Assembly (NCBI GenBank): GCA_025362115.1
Contig: JANYIK010000166.1
Coordinates: forward strand, 1-36,729
Reading direction: 5' to 3'
DNA from: Methylophilaceae bacterium
GTDB taxonomy: Bacteria > Pseudomonadota > Gammaproteobacteria > Burkholderiales > Methylophilaceae
DNA: 36,729 nt
Within the stretch, counting starts at the first letter, position 1. Each line of letters opens with the position of its first letter. Shown here piece after piece: positions 3 to 13,693 of the stretch. Made by a program: the position numbers and the translations under genes. The notes beneath the pieces are model-generated. The model was not told where the DNA came from, ran no database searches, and was given only the letters and a program-made list of their open reading frames with translations.

Positions 3-1652
3 CTGACGGGTACGGTCGCCAATATCAACACACGTCTAGCAGCGGTCACCTACAACCCCACCGCCGACTACAACGGCAGCGATATGCTGACTATGCTCAC
101 CAGCGACAATGGCAATACAGGTGGAGGTACGCTGACGGACAGCGATACCGTTGCGATTACCGTCAACTCGGTAAACGATGCCCCCAGCGGTAACAACAAT
201 ACGCTGCTTACCCAAACGGTTACGACGATCGAAGATACGCCCCATACCTTCTCTGTCGCCGAGTTTGGGTTTACTGATCCCAAAGATACGCCAGCCAACA
301 ATTTTATTGCGGTAAAAATCACCACCTTGCCGGTGCTGGGTACGGTGACGCTGAATGGGGTGGCGGTGACAGCCGGGCAGTTTGTCACGGTGGTTGATAT
401 TGCCGCAGGCAAACTGGAATACAAACCGCTGCCATTTGATAATGGTGTCTCCTATACCACGTTTACCTTCCAAGTGCAGGATGACGGCGGCACGGCCTTG
501 GGCGGGGTTGATCTCGATCCCGTACCCAAGACCATCACGATCAATGTGGGGTCAATCAATAATGCGCCTGTGAATACGGTTCCAAGCGCGGGAACCACCA
601 ATGCCAACACTAGCCGAGCGATTGCCGGCTTGAGTATTGCCGACATAGATGCTTTGGGTGGCAGCATGACCGTGACTTTGGTGACTACCAACGGCACATT
701 AACGGTTTCAGGCGGCACGGCGGCGATTGTCGGCAGCGGTACTAATACGGTCACTCTGACGGGTATCTTGGGCGCTATTAACTCTACTTTGGCGGCTTCG
801 GTCAATTATGTACCTACCAGTGGCTTCAGCGGTAGCGCCGCCCTGACCATGACCACCAATGATAACGGTAATACCGGTGCTGGCGGCCCACTGGGTGATG
901 TGTCTACGGTGAATACGACGGTGAATACGGTTCCGCTGATCATCGTGGTGCCACCACCGTTACCGATAATCCCACCACCACCACCACCACCACCGCTGCC
1001 GATAGTGACACCGACGTCAACGTCAACGCCGACGCCGACGCCAGCGGCGCAATCTGGTGCCAGCGCGAATGCGCCAAGCAACGAAGTGGCCTTGGACAAC
1101 TCGCGTACGGAAGAGCCTACACCTGAACGTAAGGTGACCGTTATCAGTTTGGGGAATACTGCAACCTTGGCCTCTAACGTGGCTACGGTAGGGGTGCAAG
1201 CGCCCAAGGCGTTCTCCAACCCCAATCAAACCGCCAATGTGTTGAACCAGCAGCTACAGTTGCTGAATATCGGCATTTCCAAGCAAGCTAGCGGCAGTTT
1301 CGGCGCTCTTTTGAATGACCTCTCTACTGGTGGTGGCCGTATCCACATAGAAAGTGCCAACACAGCAACAGGCGTAGAAACGAGCCAAGAAAAAGAATTG
1401 CGATCTCTAATCTCATCGCTCACCGTGGAAAAGAAAGTACAGCTTACCAGCACGGCGGCTTCGGCGGGTTTGGTGGTTTGGGCGCTGAACTCTGGCGGGA
1501 TTTTATCTTCAGTGTTAGCCACGGCACCAACGTGGAAGAATCTCGACCCCATCTCTCTGCTTGATGACAATGCGGGCAATTTGCCGGATGAGGATGAGGA
1601 CGAAGCTGCAGACAGCTCTGAAGAGGGTGTGGCGGATATGTTGTCTCAATAA
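3..1652 (+). CDS. C-terminal part of a giant repetitive cadherin-like/Ig-like extracellular protein (5' truncated by window edge)
   Basis: Frame is open from base 3 upstream of the listed ATG. Two copies of an LTG..N..LAA.V.Y.PT..(Y/F).GS..LTM...DNGNTG.GG.L.D repeat separated by another Ig-like module (VND/INNAP spacers). Then a Pro/Thr-rich linker, a hydrophobic segment and an acidic tail. Confidence 0.85.
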   Translation: MTGTVANINTRLAAVTYNPTADYNGSDMLTMLTSDNGNTGGGTLTDSDTVAITVNSVNDAPSGNNNTLLTQTVTTIEDTPHTFSVAEFGFTDPKDTPANNFIAVKITTLPVLGTVTLNGVAVTAGQFVTVVDIAAGKLEYKPLPFDNGVSYTTFTFQVQDDGGTALGGVDLDPVPKTITINVGSINNAPVNTVPSAGTTNANTSRAIAGLSIADIDALGGSMTVTLVTTNGTLTVSGGTAAIVGSGTNTVTLTGILGAINSTLAASVNYVPTSGFSGSAALTMTTNDNGNTGAGGPLGDVSTVNTTVNTVPLIIVVPPPLPIIPPPPPPPPLPIVTPTSTSTPTPTPAAQSGASANAPSNEVALDNSRTEEPTPERKVTVISLGNTATLASNVATVGVQAPKAFSNPNQTANVLNQQLQLLNIGISKQASGSFGALLNDLSTGGGRIHIESANTATGVETSQEKELRSLISSLTVEKKVQLTSTAASAGLVVWALNSGGILSSVLATAPTWKNLDPISLLDDNAGNLPDEDEDEAADSSEEGVADMLSQ

Positions 1653-1722: not shown

Positions 1723-3336
1723 ATGAAACTACTTGGTCTTCGCATACCGTTCATGCGCTTGCCCAGCCTTGAAAAGCTAGGAATCAAGCTGCCTAAAGTC
1801 AAGATCAGCCCTGCGGTGCGGATTAGTTTTGGCTTGATTTCGCTCGTCATGGGCTGGATCTTGCTGCTGGACATGATGGTGGGTTTTTGGCCGGATACCG
1901 GTAAAGTCACGATTCAGTTGCGCGCCAAAACCAGCGAAATGCTGGCCATCCAATCCGCACAATACATCCAAGCCGGAGATTTCGTCGGCCTCAAAAAATC
2001 CTTAGAAAAAAGCGTACATGAGCAAACAGGGGTGCGCTCAGTGGCAATGCGCCATAAAAGTGGCAAAATCGTGCTGCAAGTAGGCGACCACGCACTTTAC
2101 TGGAAACCAAAAACTACCGCCTCCACACAAGATTTTGCACGTTTAGGCATTAGCGCAGGCAACCAGCCCTGGGGCGAAATTGAAATTGCATTTACACCTT
2201 CAACTCCTCAAACCCCCTTGGATTGGCTGAGGAAAAAAGCTGTCGTTTCCTTCTTGCTGCTGATAGTGGGCGGCTTTGTGATGTATGTGTTCTATCTGCG
2301 CGGTGTATTTTCTTATCTTGACCCTTCTACCGTCATCCCCGATCGCGTCAGTTCAGCCTTCGATGCGTTTAGCGAGGGCGTGATGATGGTGGATGTCGCT
2401 GGTAAGGTGATGATCGCCAATAAGATGTTCCGTAGCTGGGGCGAGGATATGGCGGGAAACCTGTTCGGCAAGCAGGCGAGTACGTTGTCGGTGGTTAAAA
2501 ATACTATGGGGGTAGACCCCAAAGCCTATCCTTGGACTAAATCCATGGAGGCTTTGCAATCGGTCAATGGCTGGCCGCTCAAGATTGCACTGCCCTCAAA
2601 AGAGAGTATCAAAGTCATCGTCAACTGCTCGGTGATTCAGGATGCCGCAAACACGGTACGTGGTTGTATGGTGACATTTGCTGACGTGACCGAGTTGGAC
2701 AACTTGAACCAGAACTTGAACGCAGCGATGGGTAAGCTGAAAAAATCGCAAGACGAATTGGAAGAAAAAAATGAAGAGCTTTACCGTTTGGCTACGCGCG
2801 ACCCGATGACGGGGGCTTTCAATCGGCGCGCCTTTTTTGCCGACGCCGAAAAGCTGCTGGTCGAGTACAGGGAGGGCAACCGTCCGATGTGCGTCGTCAT
2901 GTCGGATATTGACCACTTCAAGAAATTCAACGATGTCCACGGCCACGCCGTGGGAGATTTGGTGATTGTTGCTTTTTCCAAGTCATTGTCTGTACCTCTG
3001 CGTACCACGGACATGCTATGTCGCTACGGCGGCGAAGAATTCGTGGTGCTGTTGCCGGGAGCCAACAAAGAAGTGGCGATGGGCATCGCAGAGCGGCTGC
3101 GGCAAGAGGTTGAGCAGCGCGCAGGCCCCTCTATTCGCCATACTACGCCGCTTAACATTACCTCCAGCTTTGGCGTGGCGCAGTTGGAGCCTGACGTGAA
3201 AGACCTGACCATGTTCATAGACCGCGCTGACCAAGGGCTCTACGTGGCGAAGAAGAGCGGCAGAAATCGGGTGAAATTCTATGGTGAGCCGATAGAAGAA
3301 AACGCTCCACCGGAAGAGCCTCGGGATTTGCATTAG
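1723..3336 (+). CDS. membrane-anchored diguanylate cyclase (PAS-like region plus GGDEF domain)
   Basis: RYGGEEFVVLLPG active-site motif, RTTD (RxxD) I-site five residues upstream, two hydrophobic segments at N-terminus, coiled-coil linker before RDPMTGAFNRRAF. Confidence 0.92.
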   Translation: MKLLGLRIPFMRLPSLEKLGIKLPKVKISPAVRISFGLISLVMGWILLLDMMVGFWPDTGKVTIQLRAKTSEMLAIQSAQYIQAGDFVGLKKSLEKSVHEQTGVRSVAMRHKSGKIVLQVGDHALYWKPKTTASTQDFARLGISAGNQPWGEIEIAFTPSTPQTPLDWLRKKAVVSFLLLIVGGFVMYVFYLRGVFSYLDPSTVIPDRVSSAFDAFSEGVMMVDVAGKVMIANKMFRSWGEDMAGNLFGKQASTLSVVKNTMGVDPKAYPWTKSMEALQSVNGWPLKIALPSKESIKVIVNCSVIQDAANTVRGCMVTFADVTELDNLNQNLNAAMGKLKKSQDELEEKNEELYRLATRDPMTGAFNRRAFFADAEKLLVEYREGNRPMCVVMSDIDHFKKFNDVHGHAVGDLVIVAFSKSLSVPLRTTDMLCRYGGEEFVVLLPGANKEVAMGIAERLRQEVEQRAGPSIRHTTPLNITSSFGVAQLEPDVKDLTMFIDRADQGLYVAKKSGRNRVKFYGEPIEENAPPEEPRDLH

Positions 3337-3381: not shown

Positions 3382-6132
3382 TTAGTGCGAAGTAATGCGC
3401 CCAAACTCAGCCGCTATCTTGGTTGCGTATTTTTCAAAGTCATCGGCCACCAGCGGTTTACTGAACAAAAATCCTTGGATAATTTCACAGCCCAAATCTT
3501 TTAGATATATGTGCTGATGTTCAGCATCCACGCCTTCGGCAATCACCGCTTTTTCAAATGTGTGCGCCACGTCCACAATGACTGACACGATCTTTTCTGA
3601 GGGCTTGCCTATGCCCAGCACGAAGGAGCGGTCTACCTTGAGGATATCGAACGGTAGCAGTCCTAGGTAGCTCAAGCTGGAATAGCCAGTGCCAAAGTCG
3701 TCAATGGCGATGAGAAAGCCTTCTTTTTGCAGGTTACGCAGCACATCTACCACGCCGCCGGTGGCGTCTACAAACATACTCTCGGTAATTTCCAGCTCGA
3801 TATTGGCGGTGGAAACGCCATAGTGCTTGAGCGTGGCCAACACTTCCTCGGTGAAAGTGGCGCGGCGCAAATCCTGACTGGAAATGTTGACGGCGATACG
3901 CGGCGGAGCAATGCCTTTGGTTGTCCAATCCACGAATTGCTTGCACGCGATGTGGCGTATGGTGTCGCTCATTTTGATGATGATGCCGGTTTCTTCGGCG
4001 ATGCTGATGAATTCGCCCGGATTCACCAGTCCGCGCGTGGGGTGCTGCCAGCGTACCAGCGCTTCAACGCCAGCAATCGCGCCGCTACGTAAGTCAATTT
4101 GCGGCTGATACATCAGAAATATCTCGCCATCAGTATTCACCGCCTGACGCAGGTCGTGTTCCAATTTCAGGCGCTCCACTGCCTTGGAATTCATGTGTTC
4201 TTCGTAATACACGTATTGGGTCTGGCCGGACGCTTTAACCCGCGTCATCGCCATCTCGGCATAGTGGAACAGGTTGTCTATGCTCTCGCCATCTGTGGGG
4301 TAAATGCTGATACCCATCACCGCGCCTAGGTGCATGGTTTGGCTTTCATAAGAGAAATTGTCGCCAAACACGCTCACCAGTTTTTCTGCCACAAATCCGA
4401 TCTCGTTAGAGTTGTTGAGGTCAGGCAGCACCACCACAAATTCATCATTGCCAAAGCGCGACACCACGTCGGATTCACGTAATTTGCTGAGTAGCCGTTG
4501 CGCCACTTCATTCAGTACGTGGTCACCACCAGCATAGCCTAGGCTATCGTTGACTTTTTTGAAGCCCGCCAAGTTGATGTAGATAATGGCCACCAGCAAT
4601 TTTTTACGCCGTGCACGTGAGATTTCTTGTGACAGACGGTCGCGGCAGAAGGCGCGGTTGGGCAAGCCGGTTACTGGGTCAAAGTGCTCCTGCATGTAAA
4701 GTTCTTTGCCGCGCATCACCGAGGTCAGCGCCACGCCTAGTCGGTCTGCAAAGGCGCGCGCAAAATGGTGCTCACCTTCGGTGAGTGACTTGTCTTGCGC
4801 TAGGCCGAAATGCAGAATTGCAGACAGTTCTCCTTCTCGATATACCGGAAACAGGTGCAGTCTGGAGGCGCCGAATTCGATCAGTGGCTTGAGGAATTCC
4901 ACCTTATCGGGATGCTCTATAAGCACGCCATTAGGATCTCCGCTCAGACTTTCTTTGAACTTGCTCTGCAAAGGAGGCAGGCTGACGGCATGGGTTTCGT
5001 CTAAAGTATTCACCCAAGTGCTTTGCTGGTCTTGCTCCGGTGCAGTGTCGTCGAGATGCGTCACCGCCACCAGCACGCAGGGAATTACTTTTGGCACGTT
5101 GGTGAACACCAGTTCTATGATGTTGTTAAAATTGGCGTTGGAGAGGATGGCGCGGTCAAACTCGTCCATTGCCCGCACAATGTCTAAAGGGTGGGACACC
5201 ATGAGTTGCCCGCCGACGCCGTGCGGGGTGGCTCTGGCACGGCGCGGACGCAAGGTCACCAGCCAGGCCAAAAACAGCGCCAGCACGATGCTGGCGGCCA
5301 TCACTCCGTCTGAGGTATTGCCGGCAAACATAGCGCTCGGACTGGCGGCGATGATGTTCCAGTCGTTTGTTGCAAACTGATCGCGTAGCGGTAGCGCGAT
5401 ATAGCTGGCTTTGCCTCCGGCGTTGCCATCATTCCAGTGTAATTCCCCAGATTGCAGTCGGAGAGGTTTGCGTAGTGTTTGTATCAGTGCGTTGTCCGGC
5501 GTGCTGGATCTGTATAGCACCTGCTGGTCGCGCTGATTGAGGACGAGTAGAGGATTACCGCTTGGCGATTCGTTCTTCCACAGATAGGCGGGTGACAACT
5601 CCGCGCTGAGCAAGTCAAAGCTATTGCTTTCACTGCCGTCATTATCTTGCGCCACGCTACGCAGCAGGATGATTCTGGCGTTGCCAGTAGTGCTTGGTAG
5701 CGCGATGAGTGCAGACTCCCCATGTGATAGATGTATTTTTATAGCTTCGGTTTGATCGGCCAGAGTGAGTTGCGTACCCAGCAGAGCCGTAATATGGCCA
5801 GATTCGTCTACATAGTTGACGGCCTTGAAGTAGGGCGTAGAAATCTGTAACAAAGAAGACGAGTTGGGGTCGCGCGCCGCGCGCTCCAAGGCGTGGTCAG
5901 CGGTACGCAGGCGATCTTGCAGAGTTTGCTTGAAGCTGGTGGCTTCTTGCAGCAGTGTGGCTTGGTGCGTGCCTTGCAAGGTAGAATCGCCTTTAGAAAA
6001 GAAAATGAAGGCGATGCAGGTCACCAGTAGTGCCAGCACCAAGGGGATTCTTCTTTGCGTGAAGCCGAATTGTGTAGAATCAGAACGCATAGCTTCCATA
6101 ATACTTGCAGTTGCTTCAAACTGCATTACCAA
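3382..6132 (-). CDS. GGDEF-EAL dual-domain protein with N-terminal membrane/periplasmic sensor and GAF-like region
   Basis: FDPVTGLPNR, RFGNDEFVVVLPD (altered GGDEF), EALVRW, NISSQD, DDFGTGYSSLSYL, KVDRSFV, AEGV motifs. True start may be an internal Met (e.g. MRSDSTQ at about 6090). Confidence 0.92.
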   Translation of the reverse strand: MVMQFEATASIMEAMRSDSTQFGFTQRRIPLVLALLVTCIAFIFFSKGDSTLQGTHQATLLQEATSFKQTLQDRLRTADHALERAARDPNSSSLLQISTPYFKAVNYVDESGHITALLGTQLTLADQTEAIKIHLSHGESALIALPSTTGNARIILLRSVAQDNDGSESNSFDLLSAELSPAYLWKNESPSGNPLLVLNQRDQQVLYRSSTPDNALIQTLRKPLRLQSGELHWNDGNAGGKASYIALPLRDQFATNDWNIIAASPSAMFAGNTSDGVMAASIVLALFLAWLVTLRPRRARATPHGVGGQLMVSHPLDIVRAMDEFDRAILSNANFNNIIELVFTNVPKVIPCVLVAVTHLDDTAPEQDQQSTWVNTLDETHAVSLPPLQSKFKESLSGDPNGVLIEHPDKVEFLKPLIEFGASRLHLFPVYREGELSAILHFGLAQDKSLTEGEHHFARAFADRLGVALTSVMRGKELYMQEHFDPVTGLPNRAFCRDRLSQEISRARRKKLLVAIIYINLAGFKKVNDSLGYAGGDHVLNEVAQRLLSKLRESDVVSRFGNDEFVVVLPDLNNSNEIGFVAEKLVSVFGDNFSYESQTMHLGAVMGISIYPTDGESIDNLFHYAEMAMTRVKASGQTQYVYYEEHMNSKAVERLKLEHDLRQAVNTDGEIFLMYQPQIDLRSGAIAGVEALVRWQHPTRGLVNPGEFISIAEETGIIIKMSDTIRHIACKQFVDWTTKGIAPPRIAVNISSQDLRRATFTEEVLATLKHYGVSTANIELEITESMFVDATGGVVDVLRNLQKEGFLIAIDDFGTGYSSLSYLGLLPFDILKVDRSFVLGIGKPSEKIVSVIVDVAHTFEKAVIAEGVDAEHQHIYLKDLGCEIIQGFLFSKPLVADDFEKYATKIAAEFGRITSH

Positions 6133-7554: not shown

Positions 7555-9702
7555 ATGCGTGAATCTCTATTCAGCCCGCTCTGGCATCGCTATTCGCAAC
7601 AGCGTCCGCAGTTGCGTTCCAATGTAACTGTTCAACAGCAGGAATACCGCAAAAAGATGTGGTATCTGCTCATCAACACCACCAACGGCAATCACTATCG
7701 CATCAACCATGTGGCTTATCAGTTTGTTGGGCGTTGTGATGGTCAGCACACGGTGCAGGTGGTGTGGGATAGCGTGTTGGAAAGCTTGCAGGACGACGCG
7801 CCGACGCAGGACGAAATCATTCGCCTGTTGACCGAGCTGGATCAGCGCGACTTGCTACGCTATGAGGCGCTGCCCAATATCAAAGGCATGTTCAGCCGCA
7901 AAAAAGAAAAGGTCAAAAAGCAGCGCCGCGCCACCATCAATCCTTTTGCTATGAAGCTTTCTTTATGGGATCCCAGTGCTTTTCTGGATAAATTGTATTG
8001 GCTACCGAGGCTGATTTTTAATCCGCTGACATTTCTGCTGTGGCTAGTCGCCGTGGGCTTTGCACTGATGTCGGCTTCTGCCAATTGGGACGAACTGACT
8101 ACACATTTCAGCAGCAACATGGCTACACCCAGATATTTATTGCTGACTTGGCTAAGCTTTCCCTTCATCAAGGCGCTACACGAGCTAGGCCACGCATTGG
8201 CGGTACGCAATTGGGGCGGGCAGGTGCATGAAACCGGCATCACCTTGTTTTTGATGACTCCCGCACCCTACGTGGATGCCTCTGCCGCCAGCGCTTTCCG
8301 CCGCACTTCCCATCGCGCCACCGTGGGGGCGATAGGCATCATGGTGGAGTTGTTACTGGCCTCCATCGCCATGCTGGTGTGGTTCAGCAGCCAACAGGGC
8401 ATCATTCACGACCTCGCCTTCGTCACCATGTTCATCTGCGGCGTTTCCACCTTGGTATTCAACGGCAATCCCCTGATGCGCTTCGATGCCTATTACATCT
8501 TGTGCGATGTCTTTGATTTGCCCAATCTTGCCACGCGTAGCAGGATGTATTGGGTCAATCTGCTCAAAAGACTGGTGCTGGGCGCTCGCAGTGTGGTGTC
8601 TATGGACAAAGCCGAAGGTGAAGGCAAGTGGCTGTTTTTTTATGCGCCATTATCGTTTGTGCTGTCGCTGACATTGATGAGTTACGCGGTGTTGTGGCTG
8701 GGCTCGCAGTCCTTGGTTGTTGGCGTGATTGGCGCGCTATTTGTGCTGATTTCTCTGGTATTGATGCCCTTGTACGGCCTGATTCGCGACATCGTGTCTT
8801 CCGCCGCCTTGGGGGCGACACGTGCACGTGCAAAAATGTTGATTACGTTGGGCTTGGGTTTGATTGTAGCTGTTCTGGTATGGGTTCCGGTGCCTTTCAG
8901 CTCAAGCGCGCAAGGCGTGATATGGATTCCCGACGAGGCTCGCATTCGCCCCGAAACCGAGGGCTTTATCAGGCAAATTCGCGCCAATCACGGTGATCCG
9001 GTTGAAATAGGCGAAGTGCTGTTTGTACTGGAAGATTCTAGCTTGCAGGCCAAATACGAGCAGTTGAAAACGCAGATTGCGGGCTTGCAGTCCGACCAGT
9101 TCAATGTGGTATTCAGTGACCCCAGCCGCGCCGTGGACATTTCTCAGAAGATTGTGAAGGTGGAGGCTGAATTGAAGCATGTAGAGGAAGATTTGGCGGG
9201 GCTGATGGTACGTAGCAAAGCCAAAGGCGTGCTGGTACTGCCACATCAGCAGGACATGCCTAACGTATTTGTGAAAAAGGGCGAGCAGCTCGGTTATGTG
9301 TTGGCGCAGGATGCTATCAAAGTCCGGGTCGCCGTGCCGGAACCCGATGCAGCGCTGCTGCGCGAACGTTTGCAGCGCGTGTTGGTGCGCACCGCCGATC
9401 ATCCTGATGAAGTGGTCGTGGCGCAGGTGGAATCGGATACCAACACCGTGACGCATACCTTACCTAGCCCGGCTCTGGGTTATAGCAACGGCGGCAGATA
9501 TGCCACCGACCCCGCAGATAAGGACGGCCTGACCGCCACCGAAGCCGTAGTGCTGTTAGACCTAAAGCTCCCCAGCGCCATGCTGGAACGCGCTGGTGTG
9601 CGCGCCAGTGTGCGCTTTGATCACGGCAACGAACCGATCGTTAAGCAGGTGTATCGCCGCTTGAACCAGCTCTTCCTGCGCTATTTTGCGGCTTCTGGTT
9701 AA
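7555..9702 (+). CDS. M50 (site-2-protease-like) polytopic membrane metallopeptidase with PqqD-like N-terminus and HlyD-like C-terminus
   Basis: HELGHAL zinc motif and NGNPLMRFDAYYILCD second motif in a multi-TM region. C-terminus has ARIRPETEGFIRQIRANHGDPVEIGEVLFVLED lipoyl-like segment. N-terminal about 100 aa resembles a PqqD-like winged helix. Confidence 0.85.
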   Translation: MRESLFSPLWHRYSQQRPQLRSNVTVQQQEYRKKMWYLLINTTNGNHYRINHVAYQFVGRCDGQHTVQVVWDSVLESLQDDAPTQDEIIRLLTELDQRDLLRYEALPNIKGMFSRKKEKVKKQRRATINPFAMKLSLWDPSAFLDKLYWLPRLIFNPLTFLLWLVAVGFALMSASANWDELTTHFSSNMATPRYLLLTWLSFPFIKALHELGHALAVRNWGGQVHETGITLFLMTPAPYVDASAASAFRRTSHRATVGAIGIMVELLLASIAMLVWFSSQQGIIHDLAFVTMFICGVSTLVFNGNPLMRFDAYYILCDVFDLPNLATRSRMYWVNLLKRLVLGARSVVSMDKAEGEGKWLFFYAPLSFVLSLTLMSYAVLWLGSQSLVVGVIGALFVLISLVLMPLYGLIRDIVSSAALGATRARAKMLITLGLGLIVAVLVWVPVPFSSSAQGVIWIPDEARIRPETEGFIRQIRANHGDPVEIGEVLFVLEDSSLQAKYEQLKTQIAGLQSDQFNVVFSDPSRAVDISQKIVKVEAELKHVEEDLAGLMVRSKAKGVLVLPHQQDMPNVFVKKGEQLGYVLAQDAIKVRVAVPEPDAALLRERLQRVLVRTADHPDEVVVAQVESDTNTVTHTLPSPALGYSNGGRYATDPADKDGLTATEAVVLLDLKLPSAMLERAGVRASVRFDHGNEPIVKQVYRRLNQLFLRYFAASG

Positions 9703-11675
9703 TGGCGAGCGGCATCAAAAACCCAGCCCCCGGCATTCTGCTGGGAAGTTACCCTGAGAAATTCGCTGAATCCCCTACCTTTTTTGCCGCCTTAAAGCGC
9801 AAATTACTCACACTTTATGCTGCGGTTGGTTGGCAGAACGCTAATTCTTATGCGCCACTTCTCAAAAAAATTGCCCAGCACGAGGCCACACTGGCGAATT
9901 TGACCCCATCACAAATGGCAGAAAAAGTACTGGCGTTGCGCCAACAGCTTTCAGTCCATGGCATGACCAATTCTCTCAAGATTGAGGCACTAGCTCTGGT
10001 GAAGCGCACCTGCCAGCGTGTACTTGGTGTAACGCCTTACGATACTCAAGTCACCGCGGCGCTCATCATGCTGGACGGCAAGCTGGCTGAGATGGCCACC
10101 GGCGAAGGTAAGACGCTGACCGCGGGGTTATGCGTGGCGGTTGCCGCATTGGCGGGCATTCCGGTGCATCTCATTACCTCCAATGATTACTTGGTGACAC
10201 GCGACGCAGAAAAGTCACGCCCGCTGTTTGCTGCGCTGGGCTTGAGCGTGGGCAGGGTGACACAGGCGATGGACATGAATGAGCGTCGCGCCGGATATGC
10301 TTGCGACATCACCTATTGCACCGCAAAAGAGTTGGTTTTTGATTATTTGCGCGACCTTGCCGTGGGCGGCAGGCCGCGTTCCGGCTATCACGCACGGGTG
10401 GCAAAGCTAGTGGGTGAGGCCTATCAGCCTGTATTGCGTGGCCTGTGTATGGCCATCATAGACGAGGCCGACAGCATACTCATAGACGAAGCACGGGTGC
10501 CGCTGATTTTGTCGCAAAGCGTCGTGGATCCCAAACAGGTAGATTATTATGGTCAGGCGCAACAATTAGCGGAGCAACTGGAAATAGGGAAAGACTACCA
10601 CCTTAATCGCCACGGCATGTCAGCCAGTCTTACCGATATTGGGCGAGAGAAATTGGAAGAAAAAGCCAAAAACCTAGGCGCTTTATGGCGTAACCGTATG
10701 CACCGTGAGGAGACCATCTGCCAGGCCTTGGCCGCGCAACATTTGTTTCTGCGGGACAGGCACTACCTAGTGCGTGACGACCAAGTACATATCATTGACG
10801 AAATCACTGGCAGACTTTCTCCCGGCAGGGTTTGGTCGCGCGGCCTGCATCAACTCATCGAAATCAAGGAGCAGTGCAAACCCAGTGGTGAAATGCTCAC
10901 CGCCGCACAGATTACCTTTCAGCGCTTTTTTCCGCGCTACCTTAAGCTGGGCGGAATGAGTGGAACGATTAAAGAATCTGCGGGTGAGCTATTTGGCGTG
11001 TTCGGACTGATGGTGGTCAAAGTGCCACTACACCAACCCAGCAAAAGAGTGGTTTACCCCAGTCGAATTTTTAGAAACAAGGCTACGCAGTGGAAAGTGG
11101 TAGTGGAACGTATCCGCCACATGCGCCAAACAGGCCGTCCGGTGCTGATAGGTACCGATTCTGTCAGCGATTCCGAAGCGCTTTCAGAGATGCTGCATAA
11201 GGCTAATTTAGCGCATGAAGTATTGAACGCCAGGCAAGACCAGCACGAAGCTGCCGTGGTGGCCAAGGCGGGTGAGCTAAACCAGATCACGGTCTCCACC
11301 AACATGGCCGGACGTGGTACGGATATTCCCTTGGGGGAAGGAGTGGAAGCTTTGGGCGGCCTGCACCTCATCATTTGTCAGCACAACACCTCGCGCCGTA
11401 TTGATCGCCAATTGTTAGGTCGCTGTGCCAGACAAGGCGACCCCGGCAGCGCAGAGACGCTGATTTCGTTTGAAAAGCCGCTGTTGACAAAGCTTTACCC
11501 TAAGTGGCTTAGCATGTTTGCCGGAGAGCAAGGGTTATCTCAGCCGCAATGGCTAGTCAGGTTGCTGGTATTGTTGCCACAGTGGTTGGAAGAAGCGCAT
11601 CAACGGGCGCAGCGTAAAGAGATGCTGGAGCAGGATGCAAGGCTGGAGCGGGAGTCGTTGACGGCTGGGGATTAG
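9702..11675 (+). CDS. SecA-like preprotein translocase ATPase paralog, C-terminally truncated
   Basis: MATGEGKTL (Walker A), AIIDEADSILIDEARVPLILS (DEAD), ITGRLSPGRVWSRGLHQLIEIKE, KLGGMSGT, STNMAGRGTDIPLGEGVEALGGLHLI. Only 657 aa, no C-terminal zinc finger. TAATG overlap with the upstream M50 gene. Confidence 0.92.
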   Translation: MASGIKNPAPGILLGSYPEKFAESPTFFAALKRKLLTLYAAVGWQNANSYAPLLKKIAQHEATLANLTPSQMAEKVLALRQQLSVHGMTNSLKIEALALVKRTCQRVLGVTPYDTQVTAALIMLDGKLAEMATGEGKTLTAGLCVAVAALAGIPVHLITSNDYLVTRDAEKSRPLFAALGLSVGRVTQAMDMNERRAGYACDITYCTAKELVFDYLRDLAVGGRPRSGYHARVAKLVGEAYQPVLRGLCMAIIDEADSILIDEARVPLILSQSVVDPKQVDYYGQAQQLAEQLEIGKDYHLNRHGMSASLTDIGREKLEEKAKNLGALWRNRMHREETICQALAAQHLFLRDRHYLVRDDQVHIIDEITGRLSPGRVWSRGLHQLIEIKEQCKPSGEMLTAAQITFQRFFPRYLKLGGMSGTIKESAGELFGVFGLMVVKVPLHQPSKRVVYPSRIFRNKATQWKVVVERIRHMRQTGRPVLIGTDSVSDSEALSEMLHKANLAHEVLNARQDQHEAAVVAKAGELNQITVSTNMAGRGTDIPLGEGVEALGGLHLIICQHNTSRRIDRQLLGRCARQGDPGSAETLISFEKPLLTKLYPKWLSMFAGEQGLSQPQWLVRLLVLLPQWLEEAHQRAQRKEMLEQDARLERESLTAGD

Positions 11676-12874
11676 ATTGCCGCTGTTGTTCCCCAGAACT
11701 TGGACATTTGCACGTTTACGCCCGCCATGTCTTTGTACACCTGTTTGACGATATTAAACTTGGAATCTTGGGTTTCGCGTACGATTATTTTTTCTGTGGA
11801 CATGCCGCTGGGGCTGATGGTGACCCGCACTGCCGCGGCACCGGGGGCAGTCCCTTGTTTCAGGACAATGCCAATCTCGCCGCTTTTGAGTAACACGGCG
11901 ATACCGGGTGGGTGGATACCAATCAGCTTGATGAAATGCGGGGCAAGTTGCGGTTTGAAGTGCGTCTGTTTTTCCAGAAACAAGGCGCTCACCGTGTCTG
12001 CAGGCAATGCAGGACGATGCTCACCACGCGAAGTGACTCGGGCGCAATAGCGCTCGGCGAAGCTAATGATATTGGCGTTGAGGGGAATTTCATCGCCTTT
12101 TTTCCCCGATGGGTAGCCGCTGCCGTCTTCATTTTCGTGGTGGTTGAGCACATAACTCAGCCATGCCTCGTTATTGATATCCACCTTCCTTAACATTTCT
12201 ACCCCCAGCACTGGATGCGCGCGCACGGCAGCCATTTCGGCTGGGGTAAGCGGGGTCGTCTTGTTACTCACCTTGAGTTGCAATTTCAACATGCCAATAT
12301 TGGCGGTGAGCGCAGCCGACAGGATGGTCATAATCTCTTCAGGGGTTTGCTCCAGGGCTTGTGCCATCAAGCCCGCGATGATGGCACAGTTGACAGGGTG
12401 GTGATGGGCGTAGCGCATAGCCCCCTGATTGAGAAAAATAGTGGCGATGGCAATTTCTGAATTGAGTTTTAGCGCGTCATAGATGAGCTGAGCGATGCCG
12501 GTGATACGCTCTTCCGCACTCTCTTCCTGTTCTTCCTCTGCTTCTTCCGGCGTTGGAGATGACGCTTCCGTTTCTTTTGCTTCTTCAGTTTTTTCTGTTA
12601 ACGGATTCTGTATGTCTGTGAGTGTTTCCCGCAATAGCTTGTTAGCTTGGTTTATCAAGCGCACCACGGAGGGAGCATTGTGCGGATTTTTTGCGGCGGC
12701 GAGAGCGTCTTCGTCATCGTAAAACAGCTTTTGTGCAGTCAGTTGCGCTAGCAATTGTTCGTTGGTGATGCACTCCCCGGTTTTTAGCGCCACACTGCCG
12801 TCCTCGCGATAGACGTTCCAGCGCATGGGTTTGCCAATGACGGTATTAGCTAGAGAGCAGGAGACTCGAGGCAT
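11672..12874 (-). CDS. HD-GYP-type protein with degenerate HD dyad
   Basis: HP..G.EML, HHENEDGSGYP, IPLNANIISFAERYCA, IGIHPPGIAVLLKSGEIGIVL match the HD-GYP family layout, but the HDIG position reads TANIG. Likely start is the internal MPRVSCSL at 12874 rather than the listed 13081. Confidence 0.82.
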   Translation of the reverse strand: MPRVSCSLANTVIGKPMRWNVYREDGSVALKTGECITNEQLLAQLTAQKLFYDDEDALAAAKNPHNAPSVVRLINQANKLLRETLTDIQNPLTEKTEEAKETEASSPTPEEAEEEQEESAEERITGIAQLIYDALKLNSEIAIATIFLNQGAMRYAHHHPVNCAIIAGLMAQALEQTPEEIMTILSAALTANIGMLKLQLKVSNKTTPLTPAEMAAVRAHPVLGVEMLRKVDINNEAWLSYVLNHHENEDGSGYPSGKKGDEIPLNANIISFAERYCARVTSRGEHRPALPADTVSALFLEKQTHFKPQLAPHFIKLIGIHPPGIAVLLKSGEIGIVLKQGTAPGAAAVRVTISPSGMSTEKIIVRETQDSKFNIVKQVYKDMAGVNVQMSKFWGTTAAI

Positions 12875-12964
12875 TGAAAATTCGTTATTTTGAGTTGTAT
12901 GTTGGCAAAGTGTTGAGATGAAGCTAATAGTATTATAGTGGGAGTTTATGGGTGATGTGAGTGA

Positions 12965-13693
12965 ATGCGGGTGCTTAGTCGAGTTTTTATTTTGATGTTG
13001 TTGAGTGGCCTCGCAGGCTGCGTCACCACGCCCCCCGCTGATGCCCCTGTCACCGATAAAGTACCGCACAAAACCGATCAATCTTCTTTTACTCAGCTCG
13101 GCAAGGGTGACCTAGATCGCATGGCGGATGTGGAGATGTCGGAGAATACGCAAAATTTGAAATTGCTGATGACCAAGCTGTACAAGCGAAATCCACATGA
13201 GTTGCACAAGAGCACCTCTGGCACGGTGGAGGAAATGGTGGCTTGGGTGTTTGGTGGTGCTCACGGCTGGAAATTCAAGAAATTAAACGAGGTGCAAGGC
13301 GTAGAGGCGATTCAGCTCGCTTTCAAACCGGATTATGAAGGCGACCGCGTATTACCTTTTATTGTTGGCCTGCAAACCATGCTGATCAAGGCGCACGGGG
13401 GTAAGACGGAATTTTATCTGACTGACAGCATAGAGCCGCAAAACGTTTATAACGCGGCGCGGAATGTGGAGATTGCGGTGTGGAAGCTTTCTACTGACCG
13501 CAGCGAGCAGGGCGAGCTTTATTTACTCAGCAATGAAATCAACGATTCCGAGCGCAACATAAGTTTCGAGCGCGAGTTTGGCAAGATCATCGGGCGGCTG
13601 GATTTGTACGCGGTGACGCTGGAGGAAAAGTCGCAGCGCCTGATTTCACGGGTAACGCAAGGTTTGGCTACAGCCTTGTTTTTGCCGTTTTGA
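12965..13693 (+). CDS. putative lipoprotein of unknown function
   Basis: Signal peptide with lipobox LLSGLAGC; no recognised domain. Confidence 0.75.
   Translation: MRVLSRVFILMLLSGLAGCVTTPPADAPVTDKVPHKTDQSSFTQLGKGDLDRMADVEMSENTQNLKLLMTKLYKRNPHELHKSTSGTVEEMVAWVFGGAHGWKFKKLNEVQGVEAIQLAFKPDYEGDRVLPFIVGLQTMLIKAHGGKTEFYLTDSIEPQNVYNAARNVEIAVWKLSTDRSEQGELYLLSNEINDSERNISFEREFGKIIGRLDLYAVTLEEKSQRLISRVTQGLATALFLPF

Follow-up and report, generated by a model that had tools for sequence, protein, structure and literature searches.

The SecA-like gene and its operon

The window analysed here, contig JANYIK010000166.1 of the Methylophilaceae bacterium assembly GCA_025362115.1 (36,729 nucleotides), contains a conserved operon that encodes a GAF-HlyD adaptor, an M50 metalloprotease fused to an HlyD-type domain (M50-HlyD) and a short SecA-like ATPase. 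The 3' end of a giant cadherin-like gene lies upstream of it (Table 1).

Table 1. Features of the window discussed in the text
Feature	Position	Strand	Basis or conservation
SecA-like ATPase, 657 residues (motor and preprotein cross-linking domain, PPXD; ends in the first scaffold helix)	9702..11675	+	Pfam, NCBIfam, family alignment, structure model
M50-HlyD protein, 715 residues: PqqD-like (RRE) N-terminus, M50 intramembrane metalloprotease (HELGH), periplasmic HlyD/MexA-like domain	7555..9702	+
GAF-HlyD membrane-fusion-type adaptor, 457 residues	6169..7542	+	directly precedes M50 in 79 of 81 loci
C-terminal part of giant cadherin-like protein, cut by contig end; predicted substrate	3..1652	+	Cadherin_4 (Pfam)
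Conserved hydrophobic C-terminal motif of the giant protein (SAGLVVWALNSGGILSSVLATAPTWKNLDPISLL)	1440..1571	+
GGDEF protein between giant gene and module; system membership uncertain	1723..3336	+	neighbour kept in sister species
GGDEF-EAL protein; system membership uncertain	3382..6132	-	neighbour kept in sister species
HD-domain c-di-GMP-type gene	11672-13081

The SecA-like protein has an intact motor, with the motifs GEGKT (residues 134–138), DEAD (254–257) and NMAGRGTD in place. Pfam matches it to SecA_DEAD, SecA_PP_bind and P-loop_SecA, and finds no match for SecA_SW or SEC-C. The initial annotation, which was made from the letters of the DNA, had described a truncated SecA paralog with its motor motifs preserved, and this description holds. 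An alignment places the end of the protein at about residue 600 of the 841 in B. subtilis SecA. The protein stops 40 residues into the scaffold helix, and the wing, the two-helix finger, the second part of the scaffold, the zinc tail and the C-terminal linker are all absent. Only 75 residues follow the QGDPG motif, where housekeeping SecA has a median of 321, and the DNA downstream of the gene in the window holds no remnant of the lost part. Among the parts of SecA that are lost here are the two-helix finger and a region that holds back ATPase activity; control of the motor therefore probably requires a partner, the M50 protein for instance.

An AlphaFold2 model built with 41 family sequences has a mean predicted local distance difference test score of 89 and a predicted template modelling (TM) score of 0.84, and is thus a confident one; it closes with one 40-residue helix, which corresponds to the first part of the SecA scaffold helix. 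Foldseek searches with this model return SecA structures. The best match by query TM-score (0.77) is the SecY-engaged SecA 6itc, and SecY-engaged 5eul and the truncated E. coli N68 (5k9t) are among the further matches.

The stop codon of the M50 gene (TAA, 9700–9702) and the start codon of the SecA-like gene (ATG, 9702) have one A in common, giving the TAATG overlap pointed out in the initial annotation. With start codons set by rule, the two genes overlap in 39 of 68 pairs from relatives, most often by 8 or 4 nucleotides.

A natural short form of SecA

The short form is a conserved trait of the whole family. Among 68 uncut genes of SecA-like relatives the median length is 663 residues, most proteins having 650–673, and length and C-terminal tail (L-L-x-x-D-x-x-L-x-x-x-L-A-F-S-G-x-x-E) are the same in 66 relatives. 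Three relatives carry GEGKS as a variant of the Walker A motif. Since the relatives share length and tail and no remnant lies downstream, truncation by a frameshift or in assembly was ruled out.

Nor is the protein the housekeeping SecA of its genome. It scores 530 bits against TIGR00963, the NCBIfam secA equivalog, which has a cut-off of 800, and a separate housekeeping secA was found on another contig, where it is cut by the contig end (G000:C177:3659-5506). In the tree, all 21 SecA-like rows (including L218, the SecA-like protein of genome G197) stand on one side of a branch with support 100/97, away from SecA1, and the window protein falls inside this group, apart from the SecA1 of its own genome. 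On these three grounds we rejected housekeeping identity. The suggestion that the gene encodes a specialised SecA-like ATPase is thus borne out by its own clade, by a short form that extends through the family and by the second secA in the genome; the tree separates the two families. Neither finding that would have told against this suggestion, the lack of another secA or a grouping with housekeeping SecA together with a frameshift, was made.

The NCBIfam models for SecA2 likewise remain below their cut-offs (488 of 1085, 461 of 930, 411 of 725 and 384 of 1100 bits), and SecA2 is represented in the tree by only two rows, one of them on a very long branch. An accessory SecA2–SecY2 system was ruled out because no SecY2 was found in the genomes checked: a search of 11 genomes gave no second SecY, ten having one SecY each and one having none that we could find.

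One copy of the module is decayed (L046, G027:C79, 8060–11995). Its GAF-HlyD and M50 genes are broken up, its SecA-like gene is without the Walker A motif and has lost its 3' third, and genome G027 contains no LEPR protein (see below) above the cut-off. Plasmid matches to the SecA-like protein partly stand under the annotations 'prepilin peptidase' or 'DEAD/DEAH box helicase'.

The M50-HlyD partner and the conserved module

The hydrophobic region of the M50 protein contains about seven long helices, which carry the HELGH site, and its periplasmic adaptor domain matches MexA and AcrA. A distal aspartate, Asp311, is found in an NxNP...D motif. We collected 80 GTDB loci with this protein as query; all 80 relatives keep HExxH, and 79 of the 80 have the distal aspartate motif. 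Catalysis is therefore probably needed.

A SecA-like gene adjoins the M50 gene in 73 of the 80 loci; among the owners of these loci are Alpha-, Beta- and Gammaproteobacteria, Thermodesulfobacteriota and Rokubacteria. The module of other genomes frequently has a third HlyD gene, placed after the set or alongside it. In the window's own genome, an HlyD gene lies on contig C104 directly before the start of a gene with the LEPR motif, and contigs C118 and C104 (L163 and L164) share a near-identical HlyD C-terminus followed by a LEPR start, so that the genome has two loci of this kind or the assembly contains strain variation. OEP (TolC-type) proteins are encoded in the same genome, unlinked to the module. 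We found no ATP-binding cassette (ABC) transporter among the open reading frames searched around the operon or among the conserved neighbours of the module, and no resistance-nodulation-division or major facilitator superfamily transporter in the module. Two further genes are candidates for accessory parts: one for a DUF3467 protein, which immediately precedes the HlyD genes in about 15 loci, and one of the SapC family, found close to the module in about 16 (examples for these observations are L059:1924-2238 and L280:6479-6784).

In a class sample of 276 genomes, 22 have a close M50 protein and 18 a distant one. The SecA-like protein occurs in 17 of the 22 and is confined to them, being absent from the 18 and from the rest of the sample. 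It therefore depends on the M50 partner, and M50-type loci can do without it. Three distant loci (L047, L048 and L050, in G104, G050 and G120) have the composition OEP/TolC, HlyD, HlyD and M50-HlyD, with a giant protein beside the set in two of them. No SecA-like gene was found in these loci, and the genomes checked contain housekeeping SecA only.

Giant proteins as candidate substrates

The giant gene at the start of the window is found in the same place in the sister species G001 (L033:17756-19999). Giants of this cadherin-like type carry the LEPR-XLL motif (NCBIfam NF012209) at their start, followed in part of them by DUF4347; in module genomes they have 2,000–14,000 residues, cadherin- or Ig-type domains and LEPR-XLL at the N-terminus. 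The sister species also has an HlyD gene followed by a LEPR/DUF4347-type giant, over a longer stretch than in the window's own genome. This genome is a fragmented metagenome-assembled genome (203 contigs, 82% complete), and as a result the giant gene is interrupted, and it is uncertain how many copies of LEPR giants there are.

LEPR-XLL proteins occur in 19 of the 22 close-M50 genomes of the class sample and in 12 of the 254 others (Fisher p = 2e-18; the sampled genomes are related, so that this and the following p-values overstate independence and are indicative only). The co-occurrence is also seen among 149 closer relatives (p = 1e-8). Strong matches to the hydrophobic C-terminal motif are confined to 15 of the 276 genomes, all 15 of which have M50-HlyD (p = 2e-14), and one or other signature, LEPR or C-terminal, is present in 21 of 22 module genomes. 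A LEPR start lies within 10 kb of the module in 21 of 80 loci; as evidence for linkage we use the test set and genome-wide counts only, some control loci having been fetched for the same motifs.

On complete plasmids the gene order is giant, (DUF3467, HlyD), HlyD, M50, SecA-like. The Mesorhizobium ciceri plasmid encodes a giant of about 10,500 residues and the Alisedimentitalea scapharcae plasmid one of about 8,100, each with LEPR at its N-terminus and each followed by adaptor, M50 and SecA-like genes. For the A. scapharcae giant (NZ_CP123586.1, QEZ52_RS00715, L283), annotation places the start downstream of the LEPR motif, and the same mis-start could hide LEPR motifs elsewhere in databases. 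Our literature searches turned up no paper on the function of LEPR-XLL/DUF4347 or on the export of these giants.

Neighbouring c-di-GMP genes

Three cyclic di-GMP (c-di-GMP)-type genes, encoding GGDEF, GGDEF-EAL and HD-domain proteins, surround the operon. The first two are conserved in position in G001, where their counterparts encode 522 residues (L033 16151–17719) and 913 residues (L033 13373–16114), respectively. They may tie display of the giant protein to c-di-GMP.

Comparison with known systems

Kamneva, Poudel and Ward described a module of GAF-HlyD, M50-HlyD and SecA-like genes, in some cases with a further HlyD, in 2015 (PMC4452313). They reported secondary SecA_DEAD proteins that lack most or all of SecA_SW, are encoded beside GAF-HlyD, M50 and HlyD genes, form their own SecA clade and are related to actinobacterial SecA2; they suggested type-I-like secretion with SecA_DEAD as the ATPase and M50 as a possible pore, called the biological role of the module completely unknown and proposed no substrate (PMC4452313). 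The window gene matches this description and so belongs to an already known kind: it encodes a second SecA_DEAD protein beside the canonical SecA, without SecA_SW and in a clade apart from SecA1, its GAF-HlyD and M50 genes are adjacent, and a further HlyD gene precedes a LEPR start on another contig. Our literature searches turned up no later paper on the SecA-like/M50/HlyD module. To the 2015 description we add a candidate substrate class, the LEPR-XLL giants, tied to the module together with the C-terminal motif, a variant without SecA but with TolC, and the invariant active site of M50, whose catalytic residues argue for protease activity besides the proposed pore.

The protein resembles canonical SecA (SecA1) in both nucleotide-binding domains, in PPXD and in its motifs (35% identity over 666 aligned columns), but has no finger, wing, second scaffold part or zinc tail, stands in a separate clade and is encoded by an unlinked gene. 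Like SecA2 of accessory Sec systems it is a second SecA beside SecA1; it differs in being much shorter, in having other partners and no second SecY, and in scoring far below the SecA2 cut-offs. E. coli N68 (5k9t), a structural match of our model, also consists of motor and PPXD without the C-domain; however, N68 is an artificial truncation, whereas the SecA-like protein is a natural one with a conserved extra helix and tail. With LapA-type type I secretion the module shares HlyD adaptors, a giant repeat adhesin, nearby c-di-GMP genes and, in the distant variants, a TolC-type channel. It differs from that system in having a SecA-like ATPase and an M50 protease in place of an ABC transporter, and in the LEPR N-terminus of the giants.

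A possible exporter of giant surface proteins

We consider it reasonably probable, judging from gene content and co-occurrence, that the SecA-like protein, as a cytoplasmic ATP-driven motor, powers a dedicated, envelope-spanning exporter of giants that is type-I-like and free of an ABC transporter. All steps of transport and cleavage in this proposal are ones that we infer. In the cytoplasm, the LEPR-XLL region at the N-terminus of a giant with cadherin/Ig repeats would be recognised, perhaps through the PqqD-like domain of the M50 protein. The SecA-like motor, which lacks the finger that reaches into SecY in canonical SecA, would drive the unfolded chain into a conduit made by the membrane domain of M50 (or into SecYEG), and the HlyD domains of the three adaptor proteins would guide it through the periplasm to a TolC-type channel. 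A cut by the invariant M50 active site, possibly within the hydrophobic segment conserved at the C-terminus, would complete the giant or set it free.

A bolder claim, to which we give slightly less than even chances, is that this would be a secretion system outside the numbered types, in which a SecA-family motor replaces the ABC transporter of a tripartite apparatus of type-I-like build, a fusion of intramembrane protease and adaptor serves as the membrane component and the substrates are LEPR-XLL giants. These surface proteins, the largest with about 14,000 residues, would all bear a mark at the N-terminus, and one subset would have the conserved hydrophobic C-terminus as a second mark.

Several observations weigh against an exporter of this kind. 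The SecA-like protein is missing from 5 of 22 close-M50 and from all 18 of 18 distant-M50 genomes, some of which have LEPR giants, so that the motor is dispensable or replaced there. No M50 match is found in 6 of 31 LEPR genomes (several of these are weak LEPR hits or poor assemblies), the matches to the LEPR hidden Markov model are short, and the relatedness of the sampled genomes tempers the statistics. The window itself holds only part of the giant gene, which two c-di-GMP genes separate from the operon. Finally, SecA itself makes no pore, and we know of no precedent for an M50 protein as conduit.

The main rival to the exporter, which we regard as unlikely, is that the SecA-like protein works with ordinary SecYEG, to which it hands over giants or for which it unfolds them, and that M50 and HlyD act after export only, in processing and passage of the outer membrane. 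The best fit of the model, by TM-score, to SecY-engaged SecA (6itc, 5eul) favours this explanation, as do the SecA2-only systems of Gram-positives, which operate with ordinary SecYEG (PMC4452313). In the ten module genomes with a single SecY and no SecY2, a Sec-type partner would have to be the housekeeping one. However, the protein lacks the finger, wing and C-terminal linker, with which canonical SecA engages SecY, the genes go together with M50/HlyD instead of sec genes, and on inspection the LEPR N-termini are unlike Sec signal peptides.

Module and giants might also co-occur merely as traits of large, surface-attached, adhesin-rich genomes, with no relation of machine to substrate. Several large-genome taxa do have many giants, and members of the module are found on plasmids and across several phyla, consistent with horizontal transfer. 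We nevertheless think this improbable, since module and giants are also found together in small genomes (G197, 1.9 Mb; G238, 2.0 Mb; the window's own, 1.8 Mb), the C-terminal motif never occurs without M50-HlyD (15 of 15) and the genes are directly linked in many loci.

Still less probable is a module that processes and exports small modified peptides, in the manner of ribosomally synthesised and post-translationally modified peptide systems with PqqD and M50 components, the giants being only neighbours. The M50 protein has a PqqD-like N-terminus, its best NCBIfam match is a daptide protease family and weaker ones are YydH and LiaK, but these matches are far under their cut-offs (143 versus 300 bits), the module genes include no recognisable radical-SAM or other modifying enzyme, and LEPR giants and the C-terminal motif are associated with the module genome-wide. 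A housekeeping SecA shortened by a frameshift or assembly error, for which the sole argument is that the protein is shorter than canonical SecA, has a negligible probability beside a separate secA, a clade of its own, 66 relatives with equal length and tail and a downstream region free of remnants.

Linking the module described in 2015 to a definite class of candidate substrates makes its role testable, and LEPR-XLL giants are among the largest bacterial proteins. If the exporter proposed here is real, SecA-type motors would have been recruited for export in two ways, with SecY and with a conduit of type-I-like design, and giant surface proteins of a widespread class would gain their first candidate machine.

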